Position numbers and translations under genes: made by a program. The notes under the pieces are model-generated. The model made no database searches, was not told the DNA's origin, and saw nothing but the letters and a program-made list of their open reading frames with translations. A DNA stretch of 34,184 nt from Erysipelatoclostridium sp. An173 (lineage in GTDB: Bacteria > Bacillota_I > Bacilli_A > Erysipelotrichales > Coprobacillaceae), in contig NZ_NFKR01000028.1 in assembly GCF_002160495.1 (NCBI RefSeq), positions 1 to 34,184 on the forward strand, read 5' to 3'. Positions 2,368 through 34,030 of this stretch are shown piece after piece. Position 1 is the first letter of the stretch; every line of letters starts with the position of its first letter.

Positions 2368-3732
2368 ATGAATCGAAAATTAATGCCAATTATGTTATTT
2401 GTAATTGAAGTAGTAATGTACTATTTTATTTGTTTATATTTTGCAATGGACATAGAGCTGATTGTAGGATCAGGTATTTTATATTTTTTATTTATGTTTA
2501 TATATGGACATTATTCTTTAAAAACATGTTTGATATGGAATGAAATAAGACAACTAGCTAAATCAAGTTTTTGTTTTTATATTGCTTTATTAGTATTAGT
2601 TCCTAGATCAACTGGTTATGAAAGAAGAATGCATTTAACTATTATGGTTATTTCTATGTTTTTTATCAGTTTATTGGCATCTAGATTTTTAAGAATAGCT
2701 TTTAGAGAACAGTTTGCAAGAAAAACATTAGTAATTGGGACAGGATATGAAGCTGCACGATTAGGTAAGATTTCCAATAATAACCGTTTTGCATTAACAG
2801 AAGTAAAAGGTTATGTTGATATTAATTATACTGATCAGTTATATGGTTTTAAACAGGAAAATCTAATAAAAAAGAGTCCTGTTTATGGTTATTGTGATAT
2901 GGATAAAGCTATAGATGCTTTAAATATTGAACAAATTATTATTGCTATTCCTGAAGCTGATCAGCAGGTAATAGATAAAGTTATGAGTGATATTCATGGA
3001 AAAGTTGAATCTGTAAAATATTTACCTGATGTAAATGGTACAATGACTTTTTCATCTGAAGTTCAAGATTTTGACGGTCAATTATTAATTGCAACATCTA
3101 ATGATAAGATGAGTGTGTTTGATCGTGCTTTTAAACGTATAATAGATATTATGGCAGGATTAGCAGGAGTTATTACATTAATCCCTTTAACAATATTTGT
3201 AAAATATAAATATGTAAAAAGTGGCGATCATGATAGTATCTTTTTTTCTCAAGAAAGAATAGGAAAAGATGGGAAATTAATAAAGATTTATAAATTTAGA
3301 TCAATGGTTCCTAATGCAGAAGAAGTGCTTGAACGCTTAATGGAAGAAGATCCAGCGATAAAAGAGGAATATTTGACCAATAAAAAATTAAAACATGATC
3401 CTAGAATTACACCAGTAGGAGATTTTTTAAGAAAAACATCATTAGATGAATGGCCACAGTTTTATAATGTATTAAAAGGTGAGATGAGTTTTATTGGTCC
3501 AAGACCATATTTACCTCGAGAAAAGGAAGATATGGGGCAGTTTTATGATTCTATTATTAAACTAAAACCCGGAGTAACTGGTATGTGGCAAGCTAACGGG
3601 AGAAGTGATGTTGAGTTTAGTTATCGTTGTAAATTAGATGATTACTATTATCATAATTGGTCAATTTGGCTAGATTTTACAATTATGTATAAAACTGTTA
3701 AAAGTGTAGTTTATGGAAAAGGTTCATTATAA
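2368..3732 (+). CDS. Undecaprenyl-phosphate sugar-1-phosphate transferase (polyprenyl initiating enzyme)
   Basis: Starts the repeat unit or primer by moving a sugar-1-phosphate from a UDP-sugar to undecaprenyl phosphate at the inner membrane face. At 454 residues it has the two-part build of WbaP/CpsE-like enzymes: N-terminal hydrophobic helices (about residues 5-110), a Rossmann-like middle (about 118-245), one more hydrophobic segment (about 257-275), and a C-terminal bacterial sugar transferase domain from about residue 252. Catalytic landmarks are K309-F-R-S-M, the Asp-Glu pair D360-E361 followed by W-P-Q-F-x-N-V-L-K-G, and the SFIGPRP segment. It is the first gene of the locus, with ugd 15 bases downstream. 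The sugar (Gal, Glc or a modified GlcNAc) cannot be told from motifs alone. Confidence 0.92.
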   Translation: MNRKLMPIMLFVIEVVMYYFICLYFAMDIELIVGSGILYFLFMFIYGHYSLKTCLIWNEIRQLAKSSFCFYIALLVLVPRSTGYERRMHLTIMVISMFFISLLASRFLRIAFREQFARKTLVIGTGYEAARLGKISNNNRFALTEVKGYVDINYTDQLYGFKQENLIKKSPVYGYCDMDKAIDALNIEQIIIAIPEADQQVIDKVMSDIHGKVESVKYLPDVNGTMTFSSEVQDFDGQLLIATSNDKMSVFDRAFKRIIDIMAGLAGVITLIPLTIFVKYKYVKSGDHDSIFFSQERIGKDGKLIKIYKFRSMVPNAEEVLERLMEEDPAIKEEYLTNKKLKHDPRITPVGDFLRKTSLDEWPQFYNVLKGEMSFIGPRPYLPREKEDMGQFYDSIIKLKPGVTGMWQANGRSDVEFSYRCKLDDYYYHNWSIWLDFTIMYKTVKSVVYGKGSL

Positions 3733-6251: not shown

Positions 6252-7376
6252 ATGGAAAACAATCAGAATGCTATTGAAGTTAGAAATATGAGTAAAGATT
6301 TTAAATTAGTTTTTGATAAACCAACAACACTAAAAGAAAGACTAGTTTTTTGGAATAGAGAGAAACCACAATGGCATCATGTTTTAAAGAATATAAATTT
6401 GGATATAAAAAAAGGTGATACTGTTGCTTTGGTTGGAACAAATGGAAGTGGAAAATCTACTTTATTGAAGTTAATGACTAAAATTTTATATCCAACAAAA
6501 GGAACTTTAGAAACTCAGGGAAAATTAACATCATTATTAGAGTTAGGAGCAGGATTTCATCCTGATTTTACAGGGCGTGAAAATATATATTTTAATGCTT
6601 CGATATTTGGTTTAACAAGAGCTGAAATAGATAAAAGAATAGATCAAATTATTGAGTTTTCAGAGTTAGGAAGTTTTATAGATAATCCTGTAAGAACCTA
6701 TTCATCAGGAATGTATATGCGATTAGCTTTTTCAGTTGCAATAAATGTTGATGCTGAAATTTTATTAATTGATGAAATACTTGCAGTAGGTGATCAGCAT
6801 TTTCAGGAAAAATGTTTTGCAAAATTAAGAGAATTACGAGATAGTGATAAAACTATTGTTATTGTTTCACATAGTTTAGATATGATAAGAAAACTTTGTA
6901 CTCGTGCTGTATGGATTTATAAGGGTGAGATTAAGGCAGATGGAGCGCCTAATGAAGTAATCGATATGTATTTGGATCAGGTTATTAAAGATCATGCTAG
7001 TGAGCATAAAGATTATAAAGCTGAAGATGTAAATTGTATTTTAACTATTGAGACACCTGTTGAAGGAGAAATAAAAAAAACAAGGGATACATTAAAAGTA
7101 TCAGGTTGGGAAGTGAGCAATACATATAATAGTAAGGTAGATATTTATTTTGATAATAAATATATAGATCAAGCTAAAAGAACAAAAAGAAACGATGTAT
7201 TAATGCATTACCAAGAGGCAAATGGTGGCGCTAGTATGAATGTTAATGCTGGCTGGGAATTAGAAATTCCTACTGAAGGATTAAAGGGTGAACATAAAAT
7301 ATTTGTTAAAGTAAGTGATGGTAATACTATTATCGCTGAAAAAGAAGTTAAAATAAATATTGAGGACAAAGAGTAG
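6252..7376 (+). CDS. Polysaccharide ABC exporter ATP-binding protein (Wzt/TagH type) with Ig-like tail
   Basis: Cytoplasmic ATPase that drives export of an undecaprenyl-linked glycan with the next gene's permease. Motifs are Walker A G62-TNGSGKST70, signature Y150-SSGM154, Walker B ILLI-D174-E175 and switch His207 in IVSH. The LLELGAGFHPDFTGREN and RTYSSGMYMRLAF segments are typical of the Wzt/TagH/RfbE subfamily. After the ATPase (to about residue 240) there is an extra beta-rich domain (about 262-370) with an SGW motif and a VDIYFDNK strand. That pattern is like the Ig-like 'GW' modules of secreted Gram-positive amidases, and it does not look like the usual Wzt C-terminal sequence. Wzt-type C-terminal domains can bind the finished polymer, so a recognition role is plausible. 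Start ATG follows AAAGGAGAC. Confidence 0.92.
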   Translation: MENNQNAIEVRNMSKDFKLVFDKPTTLKERLVFWNREKPQWHHVLKNINLDIKKGDTVALVGTNGSGKSTLLKLMTKILYPTKGTLETQGKLTSLLELGAGFHPDFTGRENIYFNASIFGLTRAEIDKRIDQIIEFSELGSFIDNPVRTYSSGMYMRLAFSVAINVDAEILLIDEILAVGDQHFQEKCFAKLRELRDSDKTIVIVSHSLDMIRKLCTRAVWIYKGEIKADGAPNEVIDMYLDQVIKDHASEHKDYKAEDVNCILTIETPVEGEIKKTRDTLKVSGWEVSNTYNSKVDIYFDNKYIDQAKRTKRNDVLMHYQEANGGASMNVNAGWELEIPTEGLKGEHKIFVKVSDGNTIIAEKEVKINIEDKE

Positions 7377-7385
7377 GTAAAGCAT

Positions 7386-8168
7386 ATGAAATTAATAAAA
7401 AATTTATATCAATATCGTGAATTACTTAAATCGAATATAAAGAAAGAAATACGTGGTAAATATAAAGGGTCTATTTTAGGAGTTTTGTGGTCTTTTCTTA
7501 ATCCTTTGTTAATGGTAATGGTTTATTTTTTAGTATTTCCATTTTTATTTAGAAATACAGTTGATAATTATTTGGTTTATCTGGTAATAGGTGTTATCCC
7601 TTGGAACTTCTTTACTACTACAATGAACCAGGGAATAATGACTATAAGAGTTAATGAAGGAATAATAAAAAAAGTATATTTTCCTAGAGAAATTTTACCA
7701 ATTTCAGTTGCGACAAGCGGATTAGTAAATTTCTTTATCTCATCAATTATCATGGTTCTATTTTGTTTATTTGGTGGTGTTGGATTATCATGGCATATCT
7801 TATTATTCCCAATTTTTGCATTAGTGCAATATTTTATTACTTTAGGATTAGTGCTAGGGTTAAGTGCAATAAATGTATATATTAAAGATACAGAATATAT
7901 CGTTCAATTTTTTGTTAATATGTTATTTTATGGTACACCAATTCTTTATGATATAAGCACATTTGATACTTTTCCAGCAATGTTAATGAATATAATTAAT
8001 TTGAATCCATTTAAACATTTAATGGTAATTTATCGTGATTTATTTATGTATCATAATTTACCTGATTTAGGTGCTGTTTTGTATGTATTTATTATTGCAA
8101 TAATTTGTTTTTTATGCGGATTAGCTATTTTTAGAAAGCTTGAAAAAGGTTTTGCAGAGGAGGTATAA
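7386..8168 (+). CDS. Polysaccharide ABC exporter permease (Wzm/TagG type)
   Basis: ABC-2 type membrane subunit, 260 residues with about six hydrophobic spans (near 35-55, 64-80, 108-130, 140-165, 172-192 and 230-250). The N-terminal KSNIKKEIRGKYKGSILGVLWSFLNP is the characteristic amphipathic start of Wzm/TagG permeases, and IVQFFVNMLFYGTPILY is a conserved mid segment. It sits nine bases after its ATPase. Two such subunits plus two ATPases would form the exporter channel for the lipid-linked glycan. Its stop is one base before the start of the next gene, which implies translational coupling. Confidence 0.92.
   Translation: MKLIKNLYQYRELLKSNIKKEIRGKYKGSILGVLWSFLNPLLMVMVYFLVFPFLFRNTVDNYLVYLVIGVIPWNFFTTTMNQGIMTIRVNEGIIKKVYFPREILPISVATSGLVNFFISSIIMVLFCLFGGVGLSWHILLFPIFALVQYFITLGLVLGLSAINVYIKDTEYIVQFFVNMLFYGTPILYDISTFDTFPAMLMNIINLNPFKHLMVIYRDLFMYHNLPDLGAVLYVFIIAIICFLCGLAIFRKLEKGFAEEV
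8156..8164 (+). promoter_or_regulatory. Ribosome site deciding the start of the first double-GT2 gene
   Basis: AGAGGAGGT lies five bases before ATG 8170, inside the last codons of the permease gene. The longer frame from TTG at 8140 has no comparable site and would overlap the permease by 29 bases. Confidence 0.8.
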
Positions 8169-8169
8169 A

Positions 8170-10344
8170 ATGGCAAAGACCAATTTAAACAGTTCTGATG
8201 CAAATAAAATTTCATTTATAAAAGAAGAGATAACCGGTATAAAAGTTCAATATTTGAAAATTGTTTTAAGTGGAACTTTGGAAACTGATGAATTTTTTGT
8301 TTATAGCAATGATGAGGAAATTGATTTTAATAAAAAATTGATTTCAGATGATGGTGATTGCCAAATAGAGCTAGCTATTCCTCAGGATAGTAAAAATATT
8401 GTTGTTAAATATAAACGTAATAATGAAATAAATGATATATATAAGTTAAAAATAACACTATTTTTTAAGATAAAAAAATTTTTTAGAAAATTATTATCAA
8501 TTATCAAACGTTCAATAATTGTATTTTGTCGTGGAATGCGTTTTTTATGGCGTGAACATCATATGATTATACCGCCTGCACTATGGAAAAAATATATTTT
8601 AAAATTTTTTAGTAGAATTAAAGAACGTGGAGAAATATTGTGGAATCCTTTTATTCAGGATGATTATCATAAATGGATTCAAATATTTGAGTCTGATAAT
8701 GAAGATGTAAAGGATTTAGAGTATAATCCGCTAATGTCAATTTTGATACCAGTATACAATGTAAGCAGGAAATATTTGAAAGAATGTTTAGATTCTATTT
8801 TAAAACAGACATATCAAAATTTTGAAATTTGTATTGTAGATGATTGTTCAACAAATGAAGAAACAATCGCAACATTAGAAGAATATGTAAAAAAAGATAG
8901 TCGTATTAAAGTTAAAAGACGAGATGAAAATGGTCATATTTCAAAGGCGACAAATGATGCATTAGATATGGCAAAAGGTGAATTTATCTGTTTAGTTGAT
9001 AATGATGATACATTGGCTATTAATGCTTTATATGAAAATGTTCTTCTATTAAATCAGCATAAGGATGCAGATTTTATTTATAGCGATGAGGATAAATTAG
9101 ATATTCATGGTTCTCGTTGTGAACCACATTTTAAATCTGATTTTGCTCCAGATACACTACTTGGTATTAATTATATTTGCCACTTTTCGGTTTTACGAAC
9201 AGAATTAGTACGTGAAGTAGGTGGATTTACAGTAGGTTTAGAAGGAGTTCAAGATCACGATTTATTTTTGAGAGTAACTGAAAAAACTAATAAGATATAT
9301 CATATTCCAAAAATACTGTATCATTGGCGAATGATAGAAGGTTCAACAGCTAGTGCAATCGAAGCCAAGGGATATGCAATAGAAAAAGGAATTCAAGCTA
9401 TAAAAAATGCATTGGCAAGAAGAAATCAAACGGCAAATGTTAGTAGCGTTGACAATAGTACAGTATATAAAGTTGAGTATACTTATGAAAAAGAGCCAAG
9501 TGTATCTATTATCATACCAACAAGAGATTTAGCTGATATAACGGATAATTGTTTAAAATCAATTTATGAATTAACTGATTATACTAATTTTGAAATTGTT
9601 ATTATAGACAATAACAGTAAAGAAGAAAAAACTTTTGAAATGTTTCAAAAATATGAAAAACAATATTCGAATTTTAGAGTTGTAAAAGCAGATATGGAGT
9701 TTAACTATTCTGCAATTAATAATTTAGGTGTTGATACATGTAATAGTGACGTTATTGTTTTACTAAATAATGATACAGAAGTGATAACGCCTTCATGGCT
9801 TAAAATAATGGTAGGATATGCAATTCAAGAACATATAGGGGCAGTTGGACCAAAATTATTATATCCAGATATGACTATTCAACATGGTGGTGTTTTATTA
9901 GGATTAGGTAATGCTGTTGCTGCTCATGCATTTATAAGTCATCCTCGTGAAGATGAAGGAGTATATGGTAGATTAAAAATACCATATAATTATTCTGCAG
10001 TTACTGCGGCTTGTTTGGCTGTGGAGCGAAAGAAATTTTTGCAAGTTGGTGGATTAGAAGAAAATTTAAAAGTAGCATATAATGATATTGATTTTAATCT
10101 TAAGTTATTATCAAAAGGATATTATAACTTATTTGTTCCTCAGGTAGAATTAATTCATTATGAATCAAAGAGTAGAGGATTGGATACAACAAGCGAAAAA
10201 TATCGTCTATTTATTCAAGAAAATAATTTTATGTATGAAAAATGGAGTACATATATCGAAAATGATCCATATTATAATAAAAATTTTAGTAGAATGGGAA
10301 TATATATGCTTGATCGACAAAAAAATAATGAGGTGAAAAAATGA
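8170..10344 (+). CDS. Double-domain GT2 glycosyltransferase
   Basis: Cytoplasmic protein of 724 residues carrying two complete family-2 GT domains, so it may add two sugars in turn or polymerise an alternating chain. N-terminal residues 15-100 are beta-rich without a recognised catalytic motif. A basic, aromatic linker (about 100-180) looks membrane-associated. GT domain 1 starts near P187 (ILIPVYN) and has D277-N-D-D280 and an HDLFLR segment. GT domain 2 starts near P443 (IIIPTRD) with NN-D535-TEV and the late H663-Y-E-S motif. The RBS-supported ATG is 8170, one base after the permease stop, and the gene overlaps the next by four bases (ATGA). Its first GT domain is very close to that of the neighbour, pointing to a tandem duplication. 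Domain architecture resembles O-antigen double GT2 proteins; sugars are unknown. Confidence 0.9.
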   Translation: MAKTNLNSSDANKISFIKEEITGIKVQYLKIVLSGTLETDEFFVYSNDEEIDFNKKLISDDGDCQIELAIPQDSKNIVVKYKRNNEINDIYKLKITLFFKIKKFFRKLLSIIKRSIIVFCRGMRFLWREHHMIIPPALWKKYILKFFSRIKERGEILWNPFIQDDYHKWIQIFESDNEDVKDLEYNPLMSILIPVYNVSRKYLKECLDSILKQTYQNFEICIVDDCSTNEETIATLEEYVKKDSRIKVKRRDENGHISKATNDALDMAKGEFICLVDNDDTLAINALYENVLLLNQHKDADFIYSDEDKLDIHGSRCEPHFKSDFAPDTLLGINYICHFSVLRTELVREVGGFTVGLEGVQDHDLFLRVTEKTNKIYHIPKILYHWRMIEGSTASAIEAKGYAIEKGIQAIKNALARRNQTANVSSVDNSTVYKVEYTYEKEPSVSIIIPTRDLADITDNCLKSIYELTDYTNFEIVIIDNNSKEEKTFEMFQKYEKQYSNFRVVKADMEFNYSAINNLGVDTCNSDVIVLLNNDTEVITPSWLKIMVGYAIQEHIGAVGPKLLYPDMTIQHGGVLLGLGNAVAAHAFISHPREDEGVYGRLKIPYNYSAVTAACLAVERKKFLQVGGLEENLKVAYNDIDFNLKLLSKGYYNLFVPQVELIHYESKSRGLDTTSEKYRLFIQENNFMYEKWSTYIENDPYYNKNFSRMGIYMLDRQKNNEVKK

Positions 10345-12263
10345 AATATCTAATAGATGAGGCAGTAATTTGTGGTATAAAAAATCCATCATTGATAATT
10401 AGAGGCTGGGTAGAAAATAGTGCAGAATACTTAGTTGTAAAAAAGGGTAACACAGTCATTAAAAAACAAGAGATAAAAAAGACAAGATCAAGAGTATCAA
10501 CTTTCCATTACTCAATAGATTTAAAAGGTCATACTAATGTAGATATATATTTTGAAGGAAATGGTAAATTAGAAAAAGTTACTAATATAAGTGCTACGTT
10601 ATCTCAAAGAATTATAAAAAAATATAAGCCTAAAGGAATTTTAATCAATAACTTAAATAATAAGTTATCAAATAAAAATAGTTCGCTAAAAAAAGAATTG
10701 GCAGAAATTAATGATGGTTTAATCGATATGAAAAATTCTGAAGAGTATAGTGCATGGTTAGCAAAACATGAAGAATTTGAACCGACAAAAGAATATTCAT
10801 ATCAACCTAAAATATCTATTGTAATGCCTGTTTATAATGTACCAGGGGAATATTTAGGATATTGTTTAGATTCTATTTTAAATCAAACATACCAAAATTT
10901 TGAAATATGTATTGCAGATGATTGTTCAACAAATGAAGATACTATTGAAACATTAAAAAAATATATGAGTAGAGATAGTAGAATTAAAGTAGTTTTTAGA
11001 GAAAAAAATGGACATATTTCTAGGGCTACTAATTCAGCTTTAGAATTAGCTACGGGTGAATTTGTTGGTTTAATGGATAATGATGATAAATTGGAAATCC
11101 ACGCTTTAAATGAAGTTGTAAATGTGCTAAATAAAAATCCAGATATTGATTTTATTTATACAGATGAAGATAAGATAGATATGGAAGAAAATAGAAGTGA
11201 TCCACATTTTAAATCAGACTTTGCATTAGACACATTATATGGTGGAAATTACATATGCCATTTTTCAGTTATTAGAAAAAGTATCATCGATAAAATAGGT
11301 GGGTTTAGAACAGGGTATGAAGGTGCTCAAGATTTTGATTTATTTTTAAGAATTACAAATGAAACAAATAAGATATATCACATACCTAAAGTTTTATATC
11401 ATTGGAGAATGATTCCTGGTTCTACTGCTGTAGGTGGAGATGGGGCTAAAAATTATGCCGCATTAGCTGGTAAAAAAGCATTAGAAGATTATTTTGAAAA
11501 AAAAGGAATACCTGTTAATATTGATAATTTTATTAGTACACATTATTTTGTAGAATACTTATTAGAAAAAGAACCTGCTGTCGATATAATTATTTATAAT
11601 TATAAAGAAAATAGCAAAATTTTAAAATCAATAAAGAGTATGACGGTATATAGTAATTATAATATTATTTGTATAAGTAGTGACGATGTAAATACTGTCA
11701 ATGAGACTGTAAAAAAATCTAATAGTGATTATATAGTATTTGTAGATGGTAATACTGAGTTTCTAACTGTTGATTGGCTTGATATTTTAATTGGATATGC
11801 AAGTCAGGATAAGATAGGAGTAGTTGGTGGAAAAGTATTAGATGAAAATATGCTAGTAAGGGAAGCAGGTTTAATTATTACAGATAAGCCTGGATTAATT
11901 CCTTCTACTGTTCTAACTTATCGTGGTGATTATGGATATAATGGTCGACTTTTAGTACCATTTAATTACTCTATTATTGAATGTAAATTATTTGCAATAA
12001 AGAAAGATAATTTTATATCTCTAGATACTAAATTTAATTTGGAGTATGCTTTTTATGATCTAAATCTTGCACTTTTAGATAAAGGTTATCGAAATGTTTT
12101 TGTACCACAAGTAGAAATAATGAATTTGAATGCTAGTTCTAAGGTGAATGATGAAATAATTGAACTTTTATTTGAAAAGAATGTATCATATACAAAGAAA
12201 AACGATTTTTACTATAATAAAAATTTTTCGAAAGAAAAAGCATTTAAAATAAACGGAGTGTAG
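10341..12263 (+). CDS. Double-domain GT2 glycosyltransferase, second domain degenerate
   Basis: Paralogue of the preceding protein, 640 residues, overlapping it by ATGA. The N-terminus (about 1-90) is a small beta-rich module with an IRGWVEN motif reminiscent of the Ig-like tail on the exporter ATPase. GT domain 1 (from about residue 155) is intact, with MPVYN, D246-N-D-D249 and a QDFDLFLR segment. The second GT2 fold is recognisable from the VDWLDILIGYAS and VPFNYSI segments, but its metal motif reads D469-G-N-T-E where the neighbour has NNDTE, and the neighbour's HYES has become NLNAS. The second half is therefore probably non-catalytic and may serve in acceptor binding or in pairing with the neighbour. 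Specificity is unknown. Confidence 0.88.
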   Translation: MKYLIDEAVICGIKNPSLIIRGWVENSAEYLVVKKGNTVIKKQEIKKTRSRVSTFHYSIDLKGHTNVDIYFEGNGKLEKVTNISATLSQRIIKKYKPKGILINNLNNKLSNKNSSLKKELAEINDGLIDMKNSEEYSAWLAKHEEFEPTKEYSYQPKISIVMPVYNVPGEYLGYCLDSILNQTYQNFEICIADDCSTNEDTIETLKKYMSRDSRIKVVFREKNGHISRATNSALELATGEFVGLMDNDDKLEIHALNEVVNVLNKNPDIDFIYTDEDKIDMEENRSDPHFKSDFALDTLYGGNYICHFSVIRKSIIDKIGGFRTGYEGAQDFDLFLRITNETNKIYHIPKVLYHWRMIPGSTAVGGDGAKNYAALAGKKALEDYFEKKGIPVNIDNFISTHYFVEYLLEKEPAVDIIIYNYKENSKILKSIKSMTVYSNYNIICISSDDVNTVNETVKKSNSDYIVFVDGNTEFLTVDWLDILIGYASQDKIGVVGGKVLDENMLVREAGLIITDKPGLIPSTVLTYRGDYGYNGRLLVPFNYSIIECKLFAIKKDNFISLDTKFNLEYAFYDLNLALLDKGYRNVFVPQVEIMNLNASSKVNDEIIELLFEKNVSYTKKNDFYYNKNFSKEKAFKINGV

Positions 12264-20450: not shown

Positions 20451-21884
20451 ATGAATAAAGTTATCAAGAACTATTTATACAACGCCAGTTATCAATTATT
20501 ATTAATTATTTTACCTATAATTACAACTCCATATGTATCTAGAGTCTTAGGTGCAGATGGGGTTGGAACGTACAGCTATACTAATTCTATAACGCAATAT
20601 TTTATTTTATTTGGATGTATAGGTTTAAATTTATATGGACAAAGGGAAATAGCCTATTATCAAAATGATGTAAGAAAAAGAAATAGAACTTTTTTTGAAT
20701 TAGTTTTTTTAAGGGCCATAACAATTTCAATAAGTTTAATTATCTTTTATTTAACAATGGTGCAATTTTCTAAGTATTCTAGTATTTTTTTGATACAAAC
20801 ATTAGATATTATTGCTTCAATATTTGATATTTCATGGTTTTTTCAAGGAATTGAGGATTTTAAACGCACAGTCTTAAGAAATTTTTTAGTTAGACTTTTA
20901 TGTGTAACATTGATATTTATTTTTGTAAAATCGCCTGCAGATTTGCCATTATATGTATTGTGTTATTCTGGTACACTATTTTTAGGAAATATTTCATTAT
21001 GGCTATATATGCCTAAGTATGTCAATAAAAATGATATAAACGGTCTAAATATAAAAAAACATATTAGACCAGCTGTAATGTTATTTTTACCACAAATTGC
21101 AACATCATTGTATACATATTTAGATAAGACAATGATCGGATATATAACTGATAATACAGCTGAAGTTGCTTATTATGAACAGTCTCAGACAATTGTTAAA
21201 ACTGTAATGACAGTCATTACTTCGTTAGGTACGGCAATGATGCCAAGAATTGCTAATTTGTTCAAAACTAATCAGTATGAAGAAATAAAAAAATATATGA
21301 ATGCTTCAATTAAGTTTGTATTGCTTTTGGCAATACCGTTTACATTTGGGATAATGGGTATTGCTAAAGGATTTGTTCCTTGGTTCTTTGGAGAAGGTTA
21401 TGAAAAAGTGGTTCCTAATATGATGTTAATAGCACCAATTATTATTTTTATTGGAATGAGTACTATTACCGGTACACAGTATCTTTTACCATTAGGAAGA
21501 CAAAAAGAATATACTTTATCAGTAATAGCAGGTGCTGTGATAAACTTTATTCTTAATATTATATTTATCTCCATTTTTGGTTCGATTGGTGCTGCAATAG
21601 GGACATTGATTGCTGAATTTGCTGTTATGGGATTCCAGCTGTATTTTATTAGAAAAGAGTTTAGTTTATTGGGTATTTTTAAGCAAGCGATAAAATATAC
21701 GTTATTTGGACTGATAATGTTTATTGTAGTAATTTTATTAAGCAATATTTTAAGTGTTTCTATAGTAAGTACTTTTGTAGAAATATTTGTTGGAGCAATT
21801 GTTTATGGTCTTTTACTACTTATTTCAAAAGATTCAATTTTTGATATTTTAAAAGCAAAGATTGCTGAAAGGAGAGCGAGATAG
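20451..21884 (+). CDS. Wzx-type polysaccharide flippase (MOP superfamily)
   Basis: Polytopic membrane protein of 477 residues with 12-14 predicted spans, of the polysaccharide transport family that flips undecaprenyl-diphosphate-linked oligosaccharides. The N-terminus KNYLYNASYQLLLIILPIITTPYVSR and the ADGVGTYSYTNS segment are strong family markers, as is WFFQGIEDFK. It starts at the base after the glf stop and ends one base before rfbD. Its presence beside a complete ABC exporter is unusual: either two glycans, or one glycan plus a separately flipped decoration. No Wzy polymerase is recognisable in the window. Confidence 0.92.
   Translation: MNKVIKNYLYNASYQLLLIILPIITTPYVSRVLGADGVGTYSYTNSITQYFILFGCIGLNLYGQREIAYYQNDVRKRNRTFFELVFLRAITISISLIIFYLTMVQFSKYSSIFLIQTLDIIASIFDISWFFQGIEDFKRTVLRNFLVRLLCVTLIFIFVKSPADLPLYVLCYSGTLFLGNISLWLYMPKYVNKNDINGLNIKKHIRPAVMLFLPQIATSLYTYLDKTMIGYITDNTAEVAYYEQSQTIVKTVMTVITSLGTAMMPRIANLFKTNQYEEIKKYMNASIKFVLLLAIPFTFGIMGIAKGFVPWFFGEGYEKVVPNMMLIAPIIIFIGMSTITGTQYLLPLGRQKEYTLSVIAGAVINFILNIIFISIFGSIGAAIGTLIAEFAVMGFQLYFIRKEFSLLGIFKQAIKYTLFGLIMFIVVILLSNILSVSIVSTFVEIFVGAIVYGLLLLISKDSIFDILKAKIAERRAR
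21867..21876 (+). promoter_or_regulatory. Ribosome site deciding the rfbD start
   Basis: GAAAGGAGAG lies nine bases before ATG 21886, within the end of the flippase gene. The upstream TTG (21862) precedes this site and lacks one of its own. Confidence 0.7.
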
Positions 21885-27998: not shown

Positions 27999-29498
27999 AT
28001 GATGATAGAGAAATTAAAAAAATTAGAAAAAAAATACATTATAGGAACAATATTGGTTTTTATTAGTGTGTTAATAATAACTTCTGTTATTTGGGGAAAT
28101 CGAACATTTTCTGTGAAAACATTAAATCAGATTATTTTCCATTTAAAAGTGTCAATGGATGGTACTGATAGTGGAGTATATCTTGATTGGTTTTTATTTT
28201 CAGTACCGATTAGTTTATTAATAGTAGTTATTTTTAATTTAGTACTTTTTGGTATTCAAAAAATATTAAAGCGAAATAATAAAAATATCAGTAATTTTAT
28301 AAAAAGAAATTTTGTTAAGTGGGGTATCTGTTGTCTTGTTTGTTCTTTGATTTTTACAGTTTATAACTATAATATCTATGGATATATAAGTAACTCATTA
28401 AAAAAAACAGATTTATATGAAAATTATTATGTTGATCCAAGCAGTGCTAATATCAGTTTTGATGGTAAAAAAAGAAACTTAATTCATTTATATTTAGAAT
28501 CAGTTGAAAATACATATGCCGATAGTGCTAATGGTGGCGGTCAAGATATCAACTATATCCCGGAATTAAGCAATTTAGCTAAGGAAAATATTAATTTTTC
28601 AAATAATGATAGTATTGGTGGAAGCCTAACTATCGATGGAACACAATGGACAATTGCTTCACAGGTTTCTCAAGATATGGGAATTCCTTTATCATTGCCT
28701 ATTACAAGTAGTAAATATGATACTTCTACTGCATTTTTACCAGGAGGATATTCATTAGGAGAAGTATTAGAAGATAATGGATATGTTAATGAGTTTATTT
28801 GTGGTTCTGATGCTGATTTTGGAGGTACCTCTAATTTTTATAAACAGCATGGTAATTATATAATTCGTGATTATAAAAGTTTTGTTGAAAGCGGAGAGAT
28901 TCCAAAAGACTATTTTGTATTTTGGGGAATTGAAGATGCAAAATTATTTGAGTTTGCTAAAAAAGATATAACCAATTTAGCTAATGGAAGTCAGCCGTTT
29001 AATATTTCTATTACCACAATTGACACTCATACTCCTGATGGTTATTTATGTAGTCAATGTCAAAAGAATCATAAAAATCAATACGCTAATGTAATTGAAT
29101 GTCAATCACGGCAAGTTAATAATTTCATTAACTGGTGTAAACAACAACCATGGTATGATAATACGACAATTGTAATTACTGGAGATCATAAAAGTATGTC
29201 AGAAAAATTTTTTGATAATATTGATAGTAACTATGTAAGAACACCATATAACTGTATTATCAATAGCGCAGTAGAAGCAAAAAATAATAAAAATAGATCA
29301 TTTAGTACAATGGATATGTATCCAACAATTTTAGCGGCAATGGGTGCTAAAATTGAAGGAGATCGTTTAGGATTAGGAACAAATTTGTTTTCAGATAAAC
29401 AAACGCTTATGGAAGAGTTAGGATTTAAAACATTAGATAACGAATTACAAAAAACATCTAATTATTATAATCAAAAAATACTTGAAGAGAAGGACTAG
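27999..29498 (+). CDS. MdoB/LtaS-like phosphoglycerol transferase
   Basis: Membrane-anchored enzyme of the sulfatase/alkaline phosphatase fold, likely to move glycerol phosphate from phosphatidylglycerol onto the glycan outside the cell. Three N-terminal spans (about 14-33, 63-87 and 106-124) precede the catalytic domain. Landmarks are E167 in LYLESVEN (metal), T215 in the DGTQWTIAS segment (expected nucleophile), D342-T-H344-TPDGY, and T394-GDH397. The DTHxPDGY and GTQ-TIAS pattern is nearer to MdoB/OpgB than to true LtaS. GacH, which adds glycerol phosphate to the group A streptococcal carbohydrate, is a known precedent. The AGAGGA site favours either this ATG or the one at 28002; the choice changes one residue. 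It is the first gene of unit D. Confidence 0.88.
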   Translation: MMIEKLKKLEKKYIIGTILVFISVLIITSVIWGNRTFSVKTLNQIIFHLKVSMDGTDSGVYLDWFLFSVPISLLIVVIFNLVLFGIQKILKRNNKNISNFIKRNFVKWGICCLVCSLIFTVYNYNIYGYISNSLKKTDLYENYYVDPSSANISFDGKKRNLIHLYLESVENTYADSANGGGQDINYIPELSNLAKENINFSNNDSIGGSLTIDGTQWTIASQVSQDMGIPLSLPITSSKYDTSTAFLPGGYSLGEVLEDNGYVNEFICGSDADFGGTSNFYKQHGNYIIRDYKSFVESGEIPKDYFVFWGIEDAKLFEFAKKDITNLANGSQPFNISITTIDTHTPDGYLCSQCQKNHKNQYANVIECQSRQVNNFINWCKQQPWYDNTTIVITGDHKSMSEKFFDNIDSNYVRTPYNCIINSAVEAKNNKNRSFSTMDMYPTILAAMGAKIEGDRLGLGTNLFSDKQTLMEELGFKTLDNELQKTSNYYNQKILEEKD

Positions 29499-29512: not shown

Positions 29513-31978
29513 ATGAAAACAGGAATAGTTGTCTTGAATTATAATGACGCTAAAGAGACGGTAGATTTTGTTAATCAGATAAAAAATTTCAAAATAATTG
29601 ATGAGATATGCGTTGTTGATAATGGATCAAACGATAATTCATTAGAATTATTACAAACTTTATCAGATGTTAAATTAATACCCCTAACAGAAAATCGAGG
29701 GTATGCTGCAGGAAATAATGCAGGGTTAAAGTATTTATATGAACAAGAATTTGATAATTATATTATTGCTAATCCCGATATTATAGTTGATCAACATAAT
29801 TTGTTGGATTTTATCGCACATATGAATTCTGAAAATAATTATCAAATTTTTGGACCTACAATTGAAGAACATGGAACAATTAATCGTGGTTGGAAAGAAA
29901 GAACGATTAAATATGATATCCATGATAACTATCCAATAATTAATCGATTGTTTAAAAAAAGTAATAAATATTCAAAATTTCATTACCATGGACCAGTTAG
30001 TCCGGTTGATTGTATTTCTGGGTGCTTTTTTGGTATGAAAAAAGAAGTTATTGATAAGATTGGCTTTTTAGATGAAGGAACATTTCTTTTCTATGAAGAA
30101 GATATTTTATGCACTAAAGCTAGACAAGCAGGTTTGCATGTATGTGTTTTAAACAATGTTAATGTTATTCATAATCATTCAGTAACAATTAATAAAAATA
30201 TTAATCATTATCGTAAATTAAGAATTTTAAAAGAGTCGCAATTACATTATCATTTAACATGTTTTGATCATAAAGAAAAACATATTAAACGCTTAAAACG
30301 TACAGCATTATGGGCATGTAAGTTTGCATATTTAAGAACTAATAAAAAAATTGTAAACACTAATAATAATCGTAAAAAGAAAAAAGTAACAATATTATCA
30401 TTGCATCTTCGTGTTGGTGGGATTGAAAAAGCTATTTGCTCTTTAGCTAATATGTTAGTTGATGATTTTGATGTTGAAATTGTAAATGTATATAAGTTGT
30501 GTGAGCCATCATTTTATATTGATCCTAGAGTAAAAGTTACTTACTTATCGACAAATCTTAAACCTAATAAAGAAGAGTTTAAATTTGCATTAAAAAATAA
30601 AAAAATATTTAGTATTTTTACTGAAGGAATAAAAGCAGTTAGGGTATTAATAAAAAAGCATCAATTAATAAAACTATGTGCTAAAGATAACGATGGTGAT
30701 ATTATTGTCTCTTCAACACTAGCTTTTGATAAATTATTTGCTAAGTATCAAAAAAATAAACTATTAATTGCTTGGGAACATTGTCATCCAGAATGTGCAA
30801 AGAATTATCCAAAAAAAGTATATCGGGCAGTAAAAAAATTCGACTTATTTATACCAGCTTCAAAATCAATATATGAATTTTATAAAGAATATTTAACAGG
30901 ACCACAATGTTTATATTTACCATTATGTATTGATAGTATGCCTGAACAAAAAGCAAATCTTAATACAAAACAAATTACTGTAATGGGAAGATTATCAAAA
31001 GAAAAAGCATATGATGATATGTTAAAGGTATTTAAAAAAGTTTTAAAACAAGAGCCAAAAGCCAAGTTAAAAATATTAGGTGATGGTGAGGAAAGAGCAA
31101 ATTTAAGTTTATTAGCTGATCAATTAGAAGTTAGTAAATCAGTAGATTTCCATGGTAATACAGTGGGTAAAGAAAAAGAACAGATTTTATTAGACACATC
31201 AGTTTTTGTTACAACATCACACTATGAAAGTTTTGGCTTAGTTTTATTAGAAGCGATGAGTTATGGAATACCATGTATTTCATTTGATAGTGCCAAAGGA
31301 TCATTAGATATTATTGATGATGGAAAAGATGGCTATATTATAAAAAATCGCGATTTAGATAAAATGGCTGATAAAATTGTAGAAATCTTGAATACTCCAC
31401 AAGATGAATTATCTAAAAATGCTATTGCTAAAGCTCAAATGTATTCATATCAAAATGTAAAAAAACAATGGTTAGATGCTTTTAAAAATTTTAATATACA
31501 TGATCTAAAAACACGAGTAATTTTTACATCATCGGCTGGTGGACATTATAGTGAGTTATGCGAGTTAAAGGAATTAATGGAGCGTTATAATTCATTTTTA
31601 ATTACCGAAGATCACGAAATGATGCAAGAGTATAAAAAAGTAAATAAATCAAGAAGCTGGTATATGCCGGCTGGAACTAAAGAACATTTATTTAAGTTTC
31701 TATGCAATTTTCCAGTCAATATTTTTAAAAGCTTTAAAGCATTTTTAAAAGTACGACCTGATGTTGTTATTGCAACTGGAGCTCATACAACAGTACCAAT
31801 TTGCTACATAGCTAAGTTATTTGGCAAAAAAGTTATTTTTATAGAAACGTTTGCAAATATTACTACTAAAACATTGTCTGGTAAATTAGTATACCCAATT
31901 GCTGACTTATTTTTAGTACAATGGGAAGATATGCTTAAATTATATCCTAAAGCAAAATATCGAGGAGGACTAAAATAA
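29513..31978 (+). CDS. Three-module glycosyltransferase: GT2 + GT4 + Alg14-like
   Basis: An 821-residue cytoplasmic protein with three glycosyltransferase-related modules in one continuous frame. Residues 1-265 are a GT2 domain of the rhamnosyltransferase branch (GIVVLNYND, VDNGS, NRGYAAGNNAG, N87-P-D89, FFGMKK, FFYEED-like FLFYEED). A basic linker (about 266-290) leads to a GT4, GT-B fold domain (about 291-660) with LHLRVGGIEKA, VMGRLSKEKAYD, LKILGDGEE and the E572-x7-E580 motif. Residues 667-821 match the Alg14/EpsE/PssD family, with SSAGGH678 and the ATGAHTTVPICYIAK and FIETFANI segments. The next gene, overlapping by one base, is the Alg13-like partner that normally supplies the donor site. 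The modules are usually separate genes; no frameshift or stop is seen at the junctions. The fusion could channel a growing chain through three additions. Confidence 0.9.
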   Translation: MKTGIVVLNYNDAKETVDFVNQIKNFKIIDEICVVDNGSNDNSLELLQTLSDVKLIPLTENRGYAAGNNAGLKYLYEQEFDNYIIANPDIIVDQHNLLDFIAHMNSENNYQIFGPTIEEHGTINRGWKERTIKYDIHDNYPIINRLFKKSNKYSKFHYHGPVSPVDCISGCFFGMKKEVIDKIGFLDEGTFLFYEEDILCTKARQAGLHVCVLNNVNVIHNHSVTINKNINHYRKLRILKESQLHYHLTCFDHKEKHIKRLKRTALWACKFAYLRTNKKIVNTNNNRKKKKVTILSLHLRVGGIEKAICSLANMLVDDFDVEIVNVYKLCEPSFYIDPRVKVTYLSTNLKPNKEEFKFALKNKKIFSIFTEGIKAVRVLIKKHQLIKLCAKDNDGDIIVSSTLAFDKLFAKYQKNKLLIAWEHCHPECAKNYPKKVYRAVKKFDLFIPASKSIYEFYKEYLTGPQCLYLPLCIDSMPEQKANLNTKQITVMGRLSKEKAYDDMLKVFKKVLKQEPKAKLKILGDGEERANLSLLADQLEVSKSVDFHGNTVGKEKEQILLDTSVFVTTSHYESFGLVLLEAMSYGIPCISFDSAKGSLDIIDDGKDGYIIKNRDLDKMADKIVEILNTPQDELSKNAIAKAQMYSYQNVKKQWLDAFKNFNIHDLKTRVIFTSSAGGHYSELCELKELMERYNSFLITEDHEMMQEYKKVNKSRSWYMPAGTKEHLFKFLCNFPVNIFKSFKAFLKVRPDVVIATGAHTTVPICYIAKLFGKKVIFIETFANITTKTLSGKLVYPIADLFLVQWEDMLKLYPKAKYRGGLK

Positions 31979-32454
31979 TGAGAATTTTTGTTATGTTTGG
32001 AACTCAAGATAAGCGATTTGATCGTTTATTAAATGCAATTTTAGATTCAAAATTTGTAAATGAAAATGACGTTTATGTTCAGTTAGGATATACAAAAGGA
32101 ACTTATGATAAAATTCATTGTCAAGAATATTACAGCGAAGAAGAATTATTGCATCAAATCGAAATCGCTGATTTGATAATTACACATGCTGGTGTTGCCG
32201 CTATTGTTTCAGCACTAAAGTTAAAAAAGAGAACAATAGTAGTACCGCGTTTGGGAAAGTATAAAGAGCAAAATAATGATCATCAAGTTCAGATCATGGA
32301 AAGATTTGTCAAAAAAGATTATATTATCCCATGTACTGATTTATCTAAACTTGATGAGTTAGTGGAAAATGCTCATAATTTTGAACCCAAAGATTATAAA
32401 AGTGAAAAGCAAGGAATTATTGATGAAATAACTAATTTTATCAATAATTTATAG
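31978..32454 (+). CDS. Alg13-like glycosyltransferase subunit (EpsF/PssE/Cps14G type)
   Basis: A 158-residue protein matching the C-terminal half of GT28-type enzymes. It has MFGTQDKRFDRLL at the start, YVQLGYTKG, the nucleotide-sugar-binding THAGVAAIVSALKLKK and the VPRLGKYKEQNNDHQ loop. Alg13-type subunits bind the UDP-sugar and act only with a membrane-bound Alg14 partner; here that partner is fused to the end of the preceding protein. TAATG overlap (stop and start share one base) couples their translation, consistent with a 1:1 complex. Bacterial pairs of this kind often add glucose or galactose; which one is not decidable here. Confidence 0.9.
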   Translation: MRIFVMFGTQDKRFDRLLNAILDSKFVNENDVYVQLGYTKGTYDKIHCQEYYSEEELLHQIEIADLIITHAGVAAIVSALKLKKRTIVVPRLGKYKEQNNDHQVQIMERFVKKDYIIPCTDLSKLDELVENAHNFEPKDYKSEKQGIIDEITNFINNL

Positions 32455-32462
32455 GAGGTATT

Positions 32463-33245
32463 ATGCATACATATGTTGTTTTAGCATATAAAGAGTCTTC
32501 ATATTTAGAAGAATGTATTAAATCAGTTTTAAATCAAAAATATCCTAGTAAAGTAGTTATCGCTACTTCAACTCCTAATGACTATATTCAAAATATGGCT
32601 GATAAATACTCATTAGAAGTAATGATAAATCCTAATCCAGGTAAAGGAATTGGGTATGATTTTGATTTTGCAGTATCTTGTGGAAAAACAAAATTGACTA
32701 CTATTGCTCATCAAGATGATATCTATGATTATGATTATTCAGATAAAATCGTTAAAGCATATCAAAAATATCCGGATTCATTAATTGTATTTAGTGATTA
32801 TTATGAAATAAGAGATACAGGTAAAGTGCATAGTAATACTAATTTAAAAATAAAGCGAATATTATTGTTACCGATGAGAATAAAAAGTCTTGCTAAAACA
32901 AAGTTTGGGAAACGCTTATCATTACGATTTGGTAATGCTATTAGTTGTCCAGCCGTAACTTTTGTAAAAGACAATATTAAAACTGATGATATTTTTAAAT
33001 GTGATTTTGTTTGTGATGTAGACTGGTATGCTTGGGAAAAATTATCTTTAAAAAAAGGACGGTTTACTTTTGTAAAAGATTTGTTAATGGGACATCGTGT
33101 TCATGAAGAATCAACCACAACTGAAATCATTAATGAACGTGTAAGAACTAAAGAAGATTTTGTAATGTTTCAAAAATTTTGGCCAAAATCAATTTCAAAA
33201 TTTATCAATAAATTTTATGTTAAAGCTGAAGATAGTAATAATTAA
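32463..33245 (+). CDS. GT2 glycosyltransferase, short form
   Basis: A 260-residue GT2 with THIS order of features: TYVVLAYKESSYLEECIKSVL at the start, a shortened Rossmann region, H83-Q-D86-D-type metal motif (residues 83-86), FSDYYEI, and CDVDWYAW, the acidic catalytic region. It lacks the usual DGSTD segment, having ATSTPNDY in its place, as in GT2 enzymes of several lactic and gut Gram-positive capsule loci. It lies eight bases after the Alg13-like gene behind AGGAGGT and closes unit D; I see no terminator after it. Donor unknown. Confidence 0.82.
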   Translation: MHTYVVLAYKESSYLEECIKSVLNQKYPSKVVIATSTPNDYIQNMADKYSLEVMINPNPGKGIGYDFDFAVSCGKTKLTTIAHQDDIYDYDYSDKIVKAYQKYPDSLIVFSDYYEIRDTGKVHSNTNLKIKRILLLPMRIKSLAKTKFGKRLSLRFGNAISCPAVTFVKDNIKTDDIFKCDFVCDVDWYAWEKLSLKKGRFTFVKDLLMGHRVHEESTTTEIINERVRTKEDFVMFQKFWPKSISKFINKFYVKAEDSNN

Positions 33246-33328: not shown

Positions 33329-34030
33329 ATGTTAAAAAAATTATTAACAATAGGGTTATCATTAATGATGGTAATTACTCTTACAGCATGTGGTGGTGAT
33401 GATTCAAATAGTGGTAGTTCATCATCTGGTGGATCAGATAATAATACTACTGAAGAAAGACCATTTACTGAATCAAAAGGATTAATTAAGTATTTTACTA
33501 TTGAAGGAGAAAATGTTTGTTTACCAGAAACAGTTGGTGAATATGTTAGATATTTAGAAAAAATTGGTACGAAAGTAGAACTTGGTGATACAGGAAATAC
33601 AGTAGATGAAGCTGGTGAATTAGATGCAGGTGGAGTATCATCAATGGTAGCGTTTTTGAAGGTTTATATCGACGGTGCTAGTGATGAATGGCAATGGTTT
33701 GGTATTCGTTATGAAAATGATACTGACGAAAGTTTACCAATTGCAGATTGTAAAGTTACTCAAATTACTTTAGATTATGATACAATTACTGAAGAAACTA
33801 ATCATCATTGCTTAGATTCATTTGTATTTATTACACAAGATGATCAAGAAATCGCTATGGATGGAGATACTACTAGTTCAGATTTATTAGATTATATCGG
33901 TGACCCTTATCAAAATACTGATGGTCATTGGCATTATTCAGATGATCAAGGATATGAATACGAAATGGTTACAGAAAATAAAAAAGGAATTTTAACAAGA
34001 GTAGTAATTACTTATCCTGAAAGCAATTAA
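33329..34030 (+). CDS. Lipoprotein of unknown function
   Basis: A 233-residue exported lipoprotein. The signal peptide KK-LLTIGLSLMMVITLTA ends in a lipobox LTAC with the modified Cys at residue 21, followed by a Gly/Ser/Asn/Asp-rich linker (about 22-45). The mature domain (about 46-233) is acidic, rich in Asp, Glu and Tyr, and has WQWFGIRYEN and HWHYSDDQGYEYEMV segments. It has no motif I can tie to an enzyme. The late IGDPYQNTDGHWHYSDD piece resembles the repeat-like ends of small secreted Gram-positive lipoproteins. It has its own promoter and terminator, so it may not belong to the polysaccharide system. Confidence 0.85.
   Translation: MLKKLLTIGLSLMMVITLTACGGDDSNSGSSSSGGSDNNTTEERPFTESKGLIKYFTIEGENVCLPETVGEYVRYLEKIGTKVELGDTGNTVDEAGELDAGGVSSMVAFLKVYIDGASDEWQWFGIRYENDTDESLPIADCKVTQITLDYDTITEETNHHCLDSFVFITQDDQEIAMDGDTTSSDLLDYIGDPYQNTDGHWHYSDDQGYEYEMVTENKKGILTRVVITYPESN

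Follow-up and report, generated by a model that had tools for sequence, protein, structure and literature searches.

In MurG and in glycosyltransferases of the Alg14/Alg13 type, the active site is split between two halves of the enzyme. The closest described bacterial systems to the one reported here are EpsE/EpsF, PssD/PssE, and Cps14F/Cps14G, which are encoded by adjoining, overlapping genes and in which the MurG-like half carrying a GGH motif is normally a free protein of about 155 amino acids (PMC8993221, PMC4973528). Characterised EpsE/EpsF enzymes join Gal or Glc in β-1,4 linkage to lipid-linked glucose, and the GGH histidine is required for catalysis in Agl24 and MurG (PMC8993221). Re-fusions of Alg14 with Alg13 are known (PMC8993221, PMC4973528), and the Alg14-like half lies within a larger polypeptide in the fused Alg14-Alg13 or MurG-like proteins of kinetoplastids, in Entamoeba, where the order is reversed, and in Agl24 (PMC8993221). 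Elsewhere in surface-glycan synthesis, several catalytic modules of one pathway can share a chain: WbbB comprises three glycosyltransferase modules, other Klebsiella O-antigen enzymes are multi-module too (PMC11231755), and WsaE is trifunctional, with two glycosyltransferases and a methyltransferase (PMC2943079). More generally, enzymes that build surface glycans are thought to form loose membrane complexes, with which two-hybrid and pull-down data agree (PMC9961541).

The locus that we analyzed in the gut bacterium Erysipelatoclostridium sp. An173 contains a novel arrangement of these familiar parts. Within the window (the whole 34,184-nucleotide stretch of DNA examined), positions 29513–31978 (+) form a single open frame of 821 codons plus stop, encoding a GT2 module (amino acids [aa] 1–265), a GT4 module (aa 289–660), and an EpsE/PssD/Alg14-like half-enzyme (aa 667–821; hereafter PssD). 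Matches to Pfam and NCBIfam families over their cut-offs bear out the original prediction that three modules occupy one uninterrupted frame, and the coordinates given for it were right. The stop codon is TAA at 31976–31978, and the ATG of the next gene, encoding a 158-aa PssE/EpsF/Alg13-like donor-binding subunit (31978–32454, +; hereafter PssE), lies at 31978–31980; this one-base overlap (TAATG) is the coupling that had been anticipated for an Alg13-like gene. An AGGAGG ribosome-binding-like site for PssE is located within the 3′ end of the fusion gene (31963–31968, +). That GT4 or PssD has a start of its own within the frame was considered and rejected, as neither module border in the fusion gene has a start codon with a ribosome site. 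The sole inner candidate with such a site, codon 689, falls after the GGH motif, and its product would be without it.

In its family matches, its overlap with PssE, its MurG-like fold, and its GGH motif, the PssD module resembles the described pairs; it differs in forming the C terminus of an 821-aa chain with two other glycosyltransferases. Known Alg14-Alg13 fusions join the Alg14-like half to its own Alg13-like partner, whereas in this fusion its companions are unrelated GT2 and GT4 modules, and the Alg13-like half remains separate. Judged by sequence, the fusion has at least two catalytic glycosyltransferase modules in one chain, as do enzymes of the WbbB and WsaE kind, and like them it shares its locus with a Wzm/Wzt-type exporter. 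Unlike WbbB and WsaE, it has no terminator module that we could recognize, and one of its modules is a GT28-type half-enzyme that depends on another polypeptide. The literature searched contained no report of a GT2-GT4-EpsE fusion with a separate EpsF, an absence that is not proof.

The N-terminal module (29513–30307, +) matches Pfam GT2 family PF00535 at aa 5–183 (57 bits; cut-off, 23.3) and carries the acidic motifs expected of CAZy GT2 enzymes, N87-P-D89 and E195-E-D197, which are invariant across six orthologous GT2 rows. The label "rhamnosyltransferase-like" proved too strong for this module, which scores 53.8 bits against the TIGR01556 cut-off of 200.55. It is followed by a Lys/Asn-rich linker (linker 1, aa 266–288; 30308–30376, +), the least conserved stretch of the protein. 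The GT4 module (30377–31492, +) matches PF00534 at aa 478–641 (139.6 bits; cut-off, 26.4) and combines the GT-B fold with the E-x7-E motif by which membership of CAZy GT4 is judged. In a fold search, the model of this module was closest to PglH (6eji; Z 36.9, root-mean-square deviation [rmsd] 2.5, 348 aligned residues) and also resembled BshA and TarM. The intact E572-x7-E580 motif that had been noted is present, and both glutamates are invariant in 13 of 13 aligned GT4 rows, fused or stand-alone.

At the C terminus, the PssD/EpsE/Alg14-like module (31511–31975, +) matches PF08660 (Alg14) at aa 722–818 (67.5 bits; cut-off, 27) and belongs by score to the PssD family NF041549 (168.4 bits at aa 670–820; cut-off, 110). 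Comparing the PssD sequence with those of solved structures produced nothing convincing, unlike the fold search, in which PssD modeled alone (pLDDT 86.6) matched the N-terminal half of MurG (3s2u; Z 17.3, rmsd 2.1, 139 aligned residues). The GGH motif is invariant in an alignment of 30 PssD sequences, so that the module has both the MurG N-terminal fold and the motif that characterize the PssD/Cps14F/EpsE group (NF041549). Its partner exceeds the cut-off of the PssE family NF041548 (135.2 bits against 120) and retains the family-invariant GTQ, H70, G72, and NDHQ residues. Given these motifs and the MurG-like, GGH-bearing tail of the fusion, the third active site should lie between that tail and PssE. 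Since the catalytic motifs are intact throughout, three active sites, the third common to PssD and PssE, are plausible. A stand-alone backup was also sought; elsewhere in the genome there is no other match to NF041549 and no other over-cut-off match to NF041548. The fused PssD and PssE are therefore the only over-cut-off pair in this genome, and the only partner of PssE is most likely the fused PssD module.

The idea that the Alg14-like part serves as a membrane scaffold found no support. The fusion protein has no transmembrane stretch (highest 19-residue Kyte-Doolittle mean, 1.41) and lacks the N-terminal membrane anchor of eukaryotic-type Alg14, a segment also missing from MurG and archaeal relatives (PMC8993221). 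The MurG-like N-terminal fold and GGH motif instead identify this part as half an enzyme. Since transmembrane hydrophobicity is absent, any membrane contact would be peripheral, and a peripheral position of the fusion protein at the membrane is likely. PssD helix 723–747 is cationic and amphipathic, with a moment that 1.1% of shuffled sequences attain; for the terminal helix of the GT2 module (aa 255–276), which is cationic and not clearly amphipathic, the figure is 22%. The rhizobial GT2 enzymes PssG and PssI, which belong to a glycosyltransferase interaction network, are membrane bound via C-terminal amphipathic helices (PMC9961541). An AlphaFold2 model of the whole fusion (mean pLDDT, 79.8) renders GT4 and PssD well and GT2 and linker 1 poorly (pLDDT below 50 at aa 271–286), and with a pTM of 0.60 the relative placement of its modules is not reliable. 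The fold search with the whole model was dominated by GT4 matches and gave little information on GT2.

The fusion is conserved beyond this strain. Of two concerns raised with the original prediction, the first, that the fusion might be found only in this assembly, was dispelled by the same unbroken frame in four other species at 77–78% identity (G005, G003, G002, and G030), including one from another genus (G030). An assembly artefact is ruled out by the intact frame in these five genomes, one of which (G005) is a single contig. The second concern, a frameshift between modules, applies to one relative and not to the other four, which are intact. In Clostridiales bacterium VE202-01 (G007), the GT2 module is in a different frame from GT4-PssD because a poly-A run in linker 1 is one base shorter than in its relatives (L026/L045). 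This difference may be either a real mutation or a homopolymer sequencing error; if the base is real, covalent linkage of GT2 may be dispensable. A further genome (G008) contains the 3′ part of the fusion, the remainder being cut by a contig end. Comparisons among the five unbroken orthologues give pN/pS values of 0.30 for GT2, 0.36 for linker 1, 0.23 for GT4, 0.08 for PssD, and 0.18 for PssE; these are rough, with synonymous sites near saturation. Every module is under purifying selection, and PssD is the most constrained. A phage or plasmid origin was rejected, as viral contigs gave no match and no plasmid record covered 80% of the query.

We next consider how often PssD is fused. A search across the entire order recovered PssD in 113 of 316 genomes; with samples of the phylum and class added, the union is 149 PssD-positive genomes, all from one class. 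The PssD frames in these genomes are nearly always 150–190 codons long, in keeping with the original statement that such modules are usually separate genes. The triple fusion is present in 5 of the 149. Three genomes encode a GT4-PssD fusion (G643, G721, and G686), three place PssD behind an O-antigen-ligase/Wzy-like or similar membrane protein in one chain (G053, G301, and G756), and VE202-01 has a long PssD frame of two modules. Both the GT4-PssD fusions (L044, L052, and L053) and the membrane protein-PssD fusions (L043, L054, and L042) share with the triple fusion a C-terminal PssD directly followed by PssE. They differ from it in their separate places in the PssD tree, the former also in having two modules and the latter in their polymerase-like membrane partner. 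Triple fusions form one group (support 100/97 in the PssD tree and 97/96 in the GT4 tree), apart from the GT4-PssD fusions, which make up their own group on one side of a branch in both trees; the Wzy-PssD sequences sit in various places on long branches. A single origin of all PssD fusions is therefore unlikely, and the separate groups indicate that joining probably happened more than once, a claim limited by the long branches. In unfused relatives (L048, L030, L032, and L061), GT4, PssD, and PssE are adjacent in that order; a GT2 and ABC exporter genes come next in L048, and likewise in L044, where GT4 and PssD are fused.

The fusion gene is situated in a polysaccharide locus. At the 5′ end is a polyprenyl glycosylphosphotransferase, the likely initiating enzyme (2368–3732, +; TIGR03025, 321.8 bits; cut-off, 295.55), which is 84–86% identical in G005, G007, and G002. 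Subsequent genes include those for a UDP-sugar dehydrogenase, for the Wzt-like ATPase and the Wzm-like permease of an ABC exporter (6252–8168, +; PF00005 and PF01061), which also occur in other genomes' fusion loci, and for multi-GT2 proteins, UDP-galactopyranose mutase, a Wzx-like flippase, and RmlD. Directly 5′ of the fusion is a sulfatase-fold, phosphoglycerol transferase-like membrane protein (27999–29498, +; PF00884, with a PRK12363 match below cut-off), kept in same-genus loci at 73% identity, and after PssE comes a GT2 gene (32463–33245, +; PF00535), kept with the fusion in these loci at 83–90% identity. Same-genus loci have a constant 5′ end, the phosphoglycosyltransferase, and a constant 3′ end, consisting of RmlD, DUF2142, the sulfatase-fold protein, the fusion, PssE, and GT2; several middle genes are absent or far less similar. 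This combination of constant ends with a variable middle suggests that what the fusion makes, for instance a core or linkage oligosaccharide, is shared by several glycans. The neighbor genes differ in G030, and the phosphoglycosyltransferase was not seen in the stretch read.

Other features of the locus deserve mention. A protein with two GT2 modules (8140–10344), overlapped by a second large GT2 protein (10341–12263), lies directly behind the ABC exporter, and this pair is the probable backbone polymerase. The ABC-2 polysaccharide exporter (6252–8168) and a Wzx/MurJ-like flippase (20451–21884) occur in one locus, together with GtrA/GtrB-like and DUF2142/DUF7657 membrane proteins, suggesting that the backbone leaves via the ABC exporter and that side groups are flipped separately. 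Near the 3′ end, a predicted lipoprotein-like protein of 233 aa (33329–34030) adjoins the PssE/GT2 end in six of six relatives read, including G030.

We propose, with somewhat more conviction than doubt, that the fusion and PssE constitute a peripheral unit with three active sites, in which PssD-PssE, GT4, and GT2 extend an undecaprenyl diphosphate (Und-PP)-linked sugar into a core or linkage oligosaccharide. The locus phosphoglycosyltransferase would load a sugar phosphate onto undecaprenyl phosphate. A split site of the MurG/EpsEF type, with the GGH-bearing PssD module as acceptor half and PssE as nucleotide-sugar half, would most likely add the second sugar. Those that follow would come from the GT4 and GT2 modules, the unit making up to three additions in all. 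If EpsE/EpsF chemistry holds here, PssD-PssE would come first after the phosphoglycosyltransferase, and the chain would work from its C to its N terminus. The product, a short oligosaccharide, would serve the surface polysaccharide of the locus as a core or linkage unit. The split site and the acceptor type are suggested by analogy with the known families; the order of action, the role in a linkage unit, and any benefit of joining we can only infer, and sequence alone does not fix the order or the acceptors. Given the Wzx-like flippase in the locus, a role for the fusion in repeat-unit synthesis is possible.

Whether the covalent connection itself confers a benefit is a separate matter. Stop codons could simply have been lost between co-translated neighbors, leaving independent enzymes with no gain beyond fixed stoichiometry, which can be compatible with the chemistry proposed above. 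We regard such neutral joining as a serious, if tentative, possibility: GT4, PssD, and PssE are already neighbors in that order in unfused relatives, PssD is attached to whatever lies upstream, be it GT4 or a Wzy-like protein, and VE202-01 apparently lives with GT2 split off. Against it, the triple fusion has been maintained across two genera at 77–78% identity and is unbroken in four relatives. At the other extreme, the fusion and PssE might act as a covalent assembly line that adds three consecutive sugars, from the C- to the N-terminal module, with the undecaprenyl intermediate never released; this we consider doubtful. If it were true, the repeated attachment of PssD to GT4 and Wzy-like polymerases would show that docking onto later enzymes in the pathway is a general property of the EpsEF step.

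It is also conceivable that the fusion is a polymerase rather than a core builder, its three modules acting repeatedly to make the repeat of an ABC-exported polymer in the manner of WbbB or WsaE. Multi-module polymerases are known from ABC systems (PMC11231755, PMC2943079), and an ABC exporter is encoded both in this locus and beside related GT4-PssD-PssE-GT2 sets. However, the multi-GT2 pair directly behind the exporter genes (8140–12263) is a better candidate, the fusion is constant where the middle genes vary, and characterised EpsE/EpsF enzymes work on a lipid-linked first sugar (PMC8993221), all of which make this reading unlikely. Least probable by far is that one module lacks catalytic activity and serves, for example, in docking or regulation. 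GT2, the fastest evolving, would be the obvious choice, since its pN/pS (0.30) exceeds that of the other two modules and its model is the weakest, but that ratio is far below 1, and its NPD and EED motifs are as invariant in six rows as are E-x7-E in GT4 and GGH in PssD.

The proposed core-building unit adds modestly to what is known, as its parts come from known families and multi-module glycosyltransferases have been described. Nonetheless, a natural covalent fusion of three such enzymes, kept in several species, tells which steps are neighbors and offers a ready-made protein for studying substrate hand-over. The further PssD fusions, whether the partner is GT4 or a polymerase-like protein, act as "Rosetta stone" links.

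Several proteins in the related loci attach cytoplasmic glycosyltransferases to polymerase-like membrane proteins. PF13425 O-antigen-ligase-like proteins are fused to PssD in L043 (4166–6028, +) and L054 (6005–7702, −) and to GT4 in L031 (2922–5390, +). In L042 (6368–9253, −), PssD ends a 961-aa protein whose membrane-protein front, Wzy-like by resemblance to its neighbors, holds four Big_2 Ig-like repeats; the Ig domains would presumably be extracellular and the PssD half-enzyme cytoplasmic. Finally, PssE carries a C-terminal GtrA/DPMS-like transmembrane domain in L059 (4632–5516, +; over the family cut-off) and in L060 (2889–3755, −; under it), a tail that may represent an alternative means of holding the PssD-PssE pair at the membrane.
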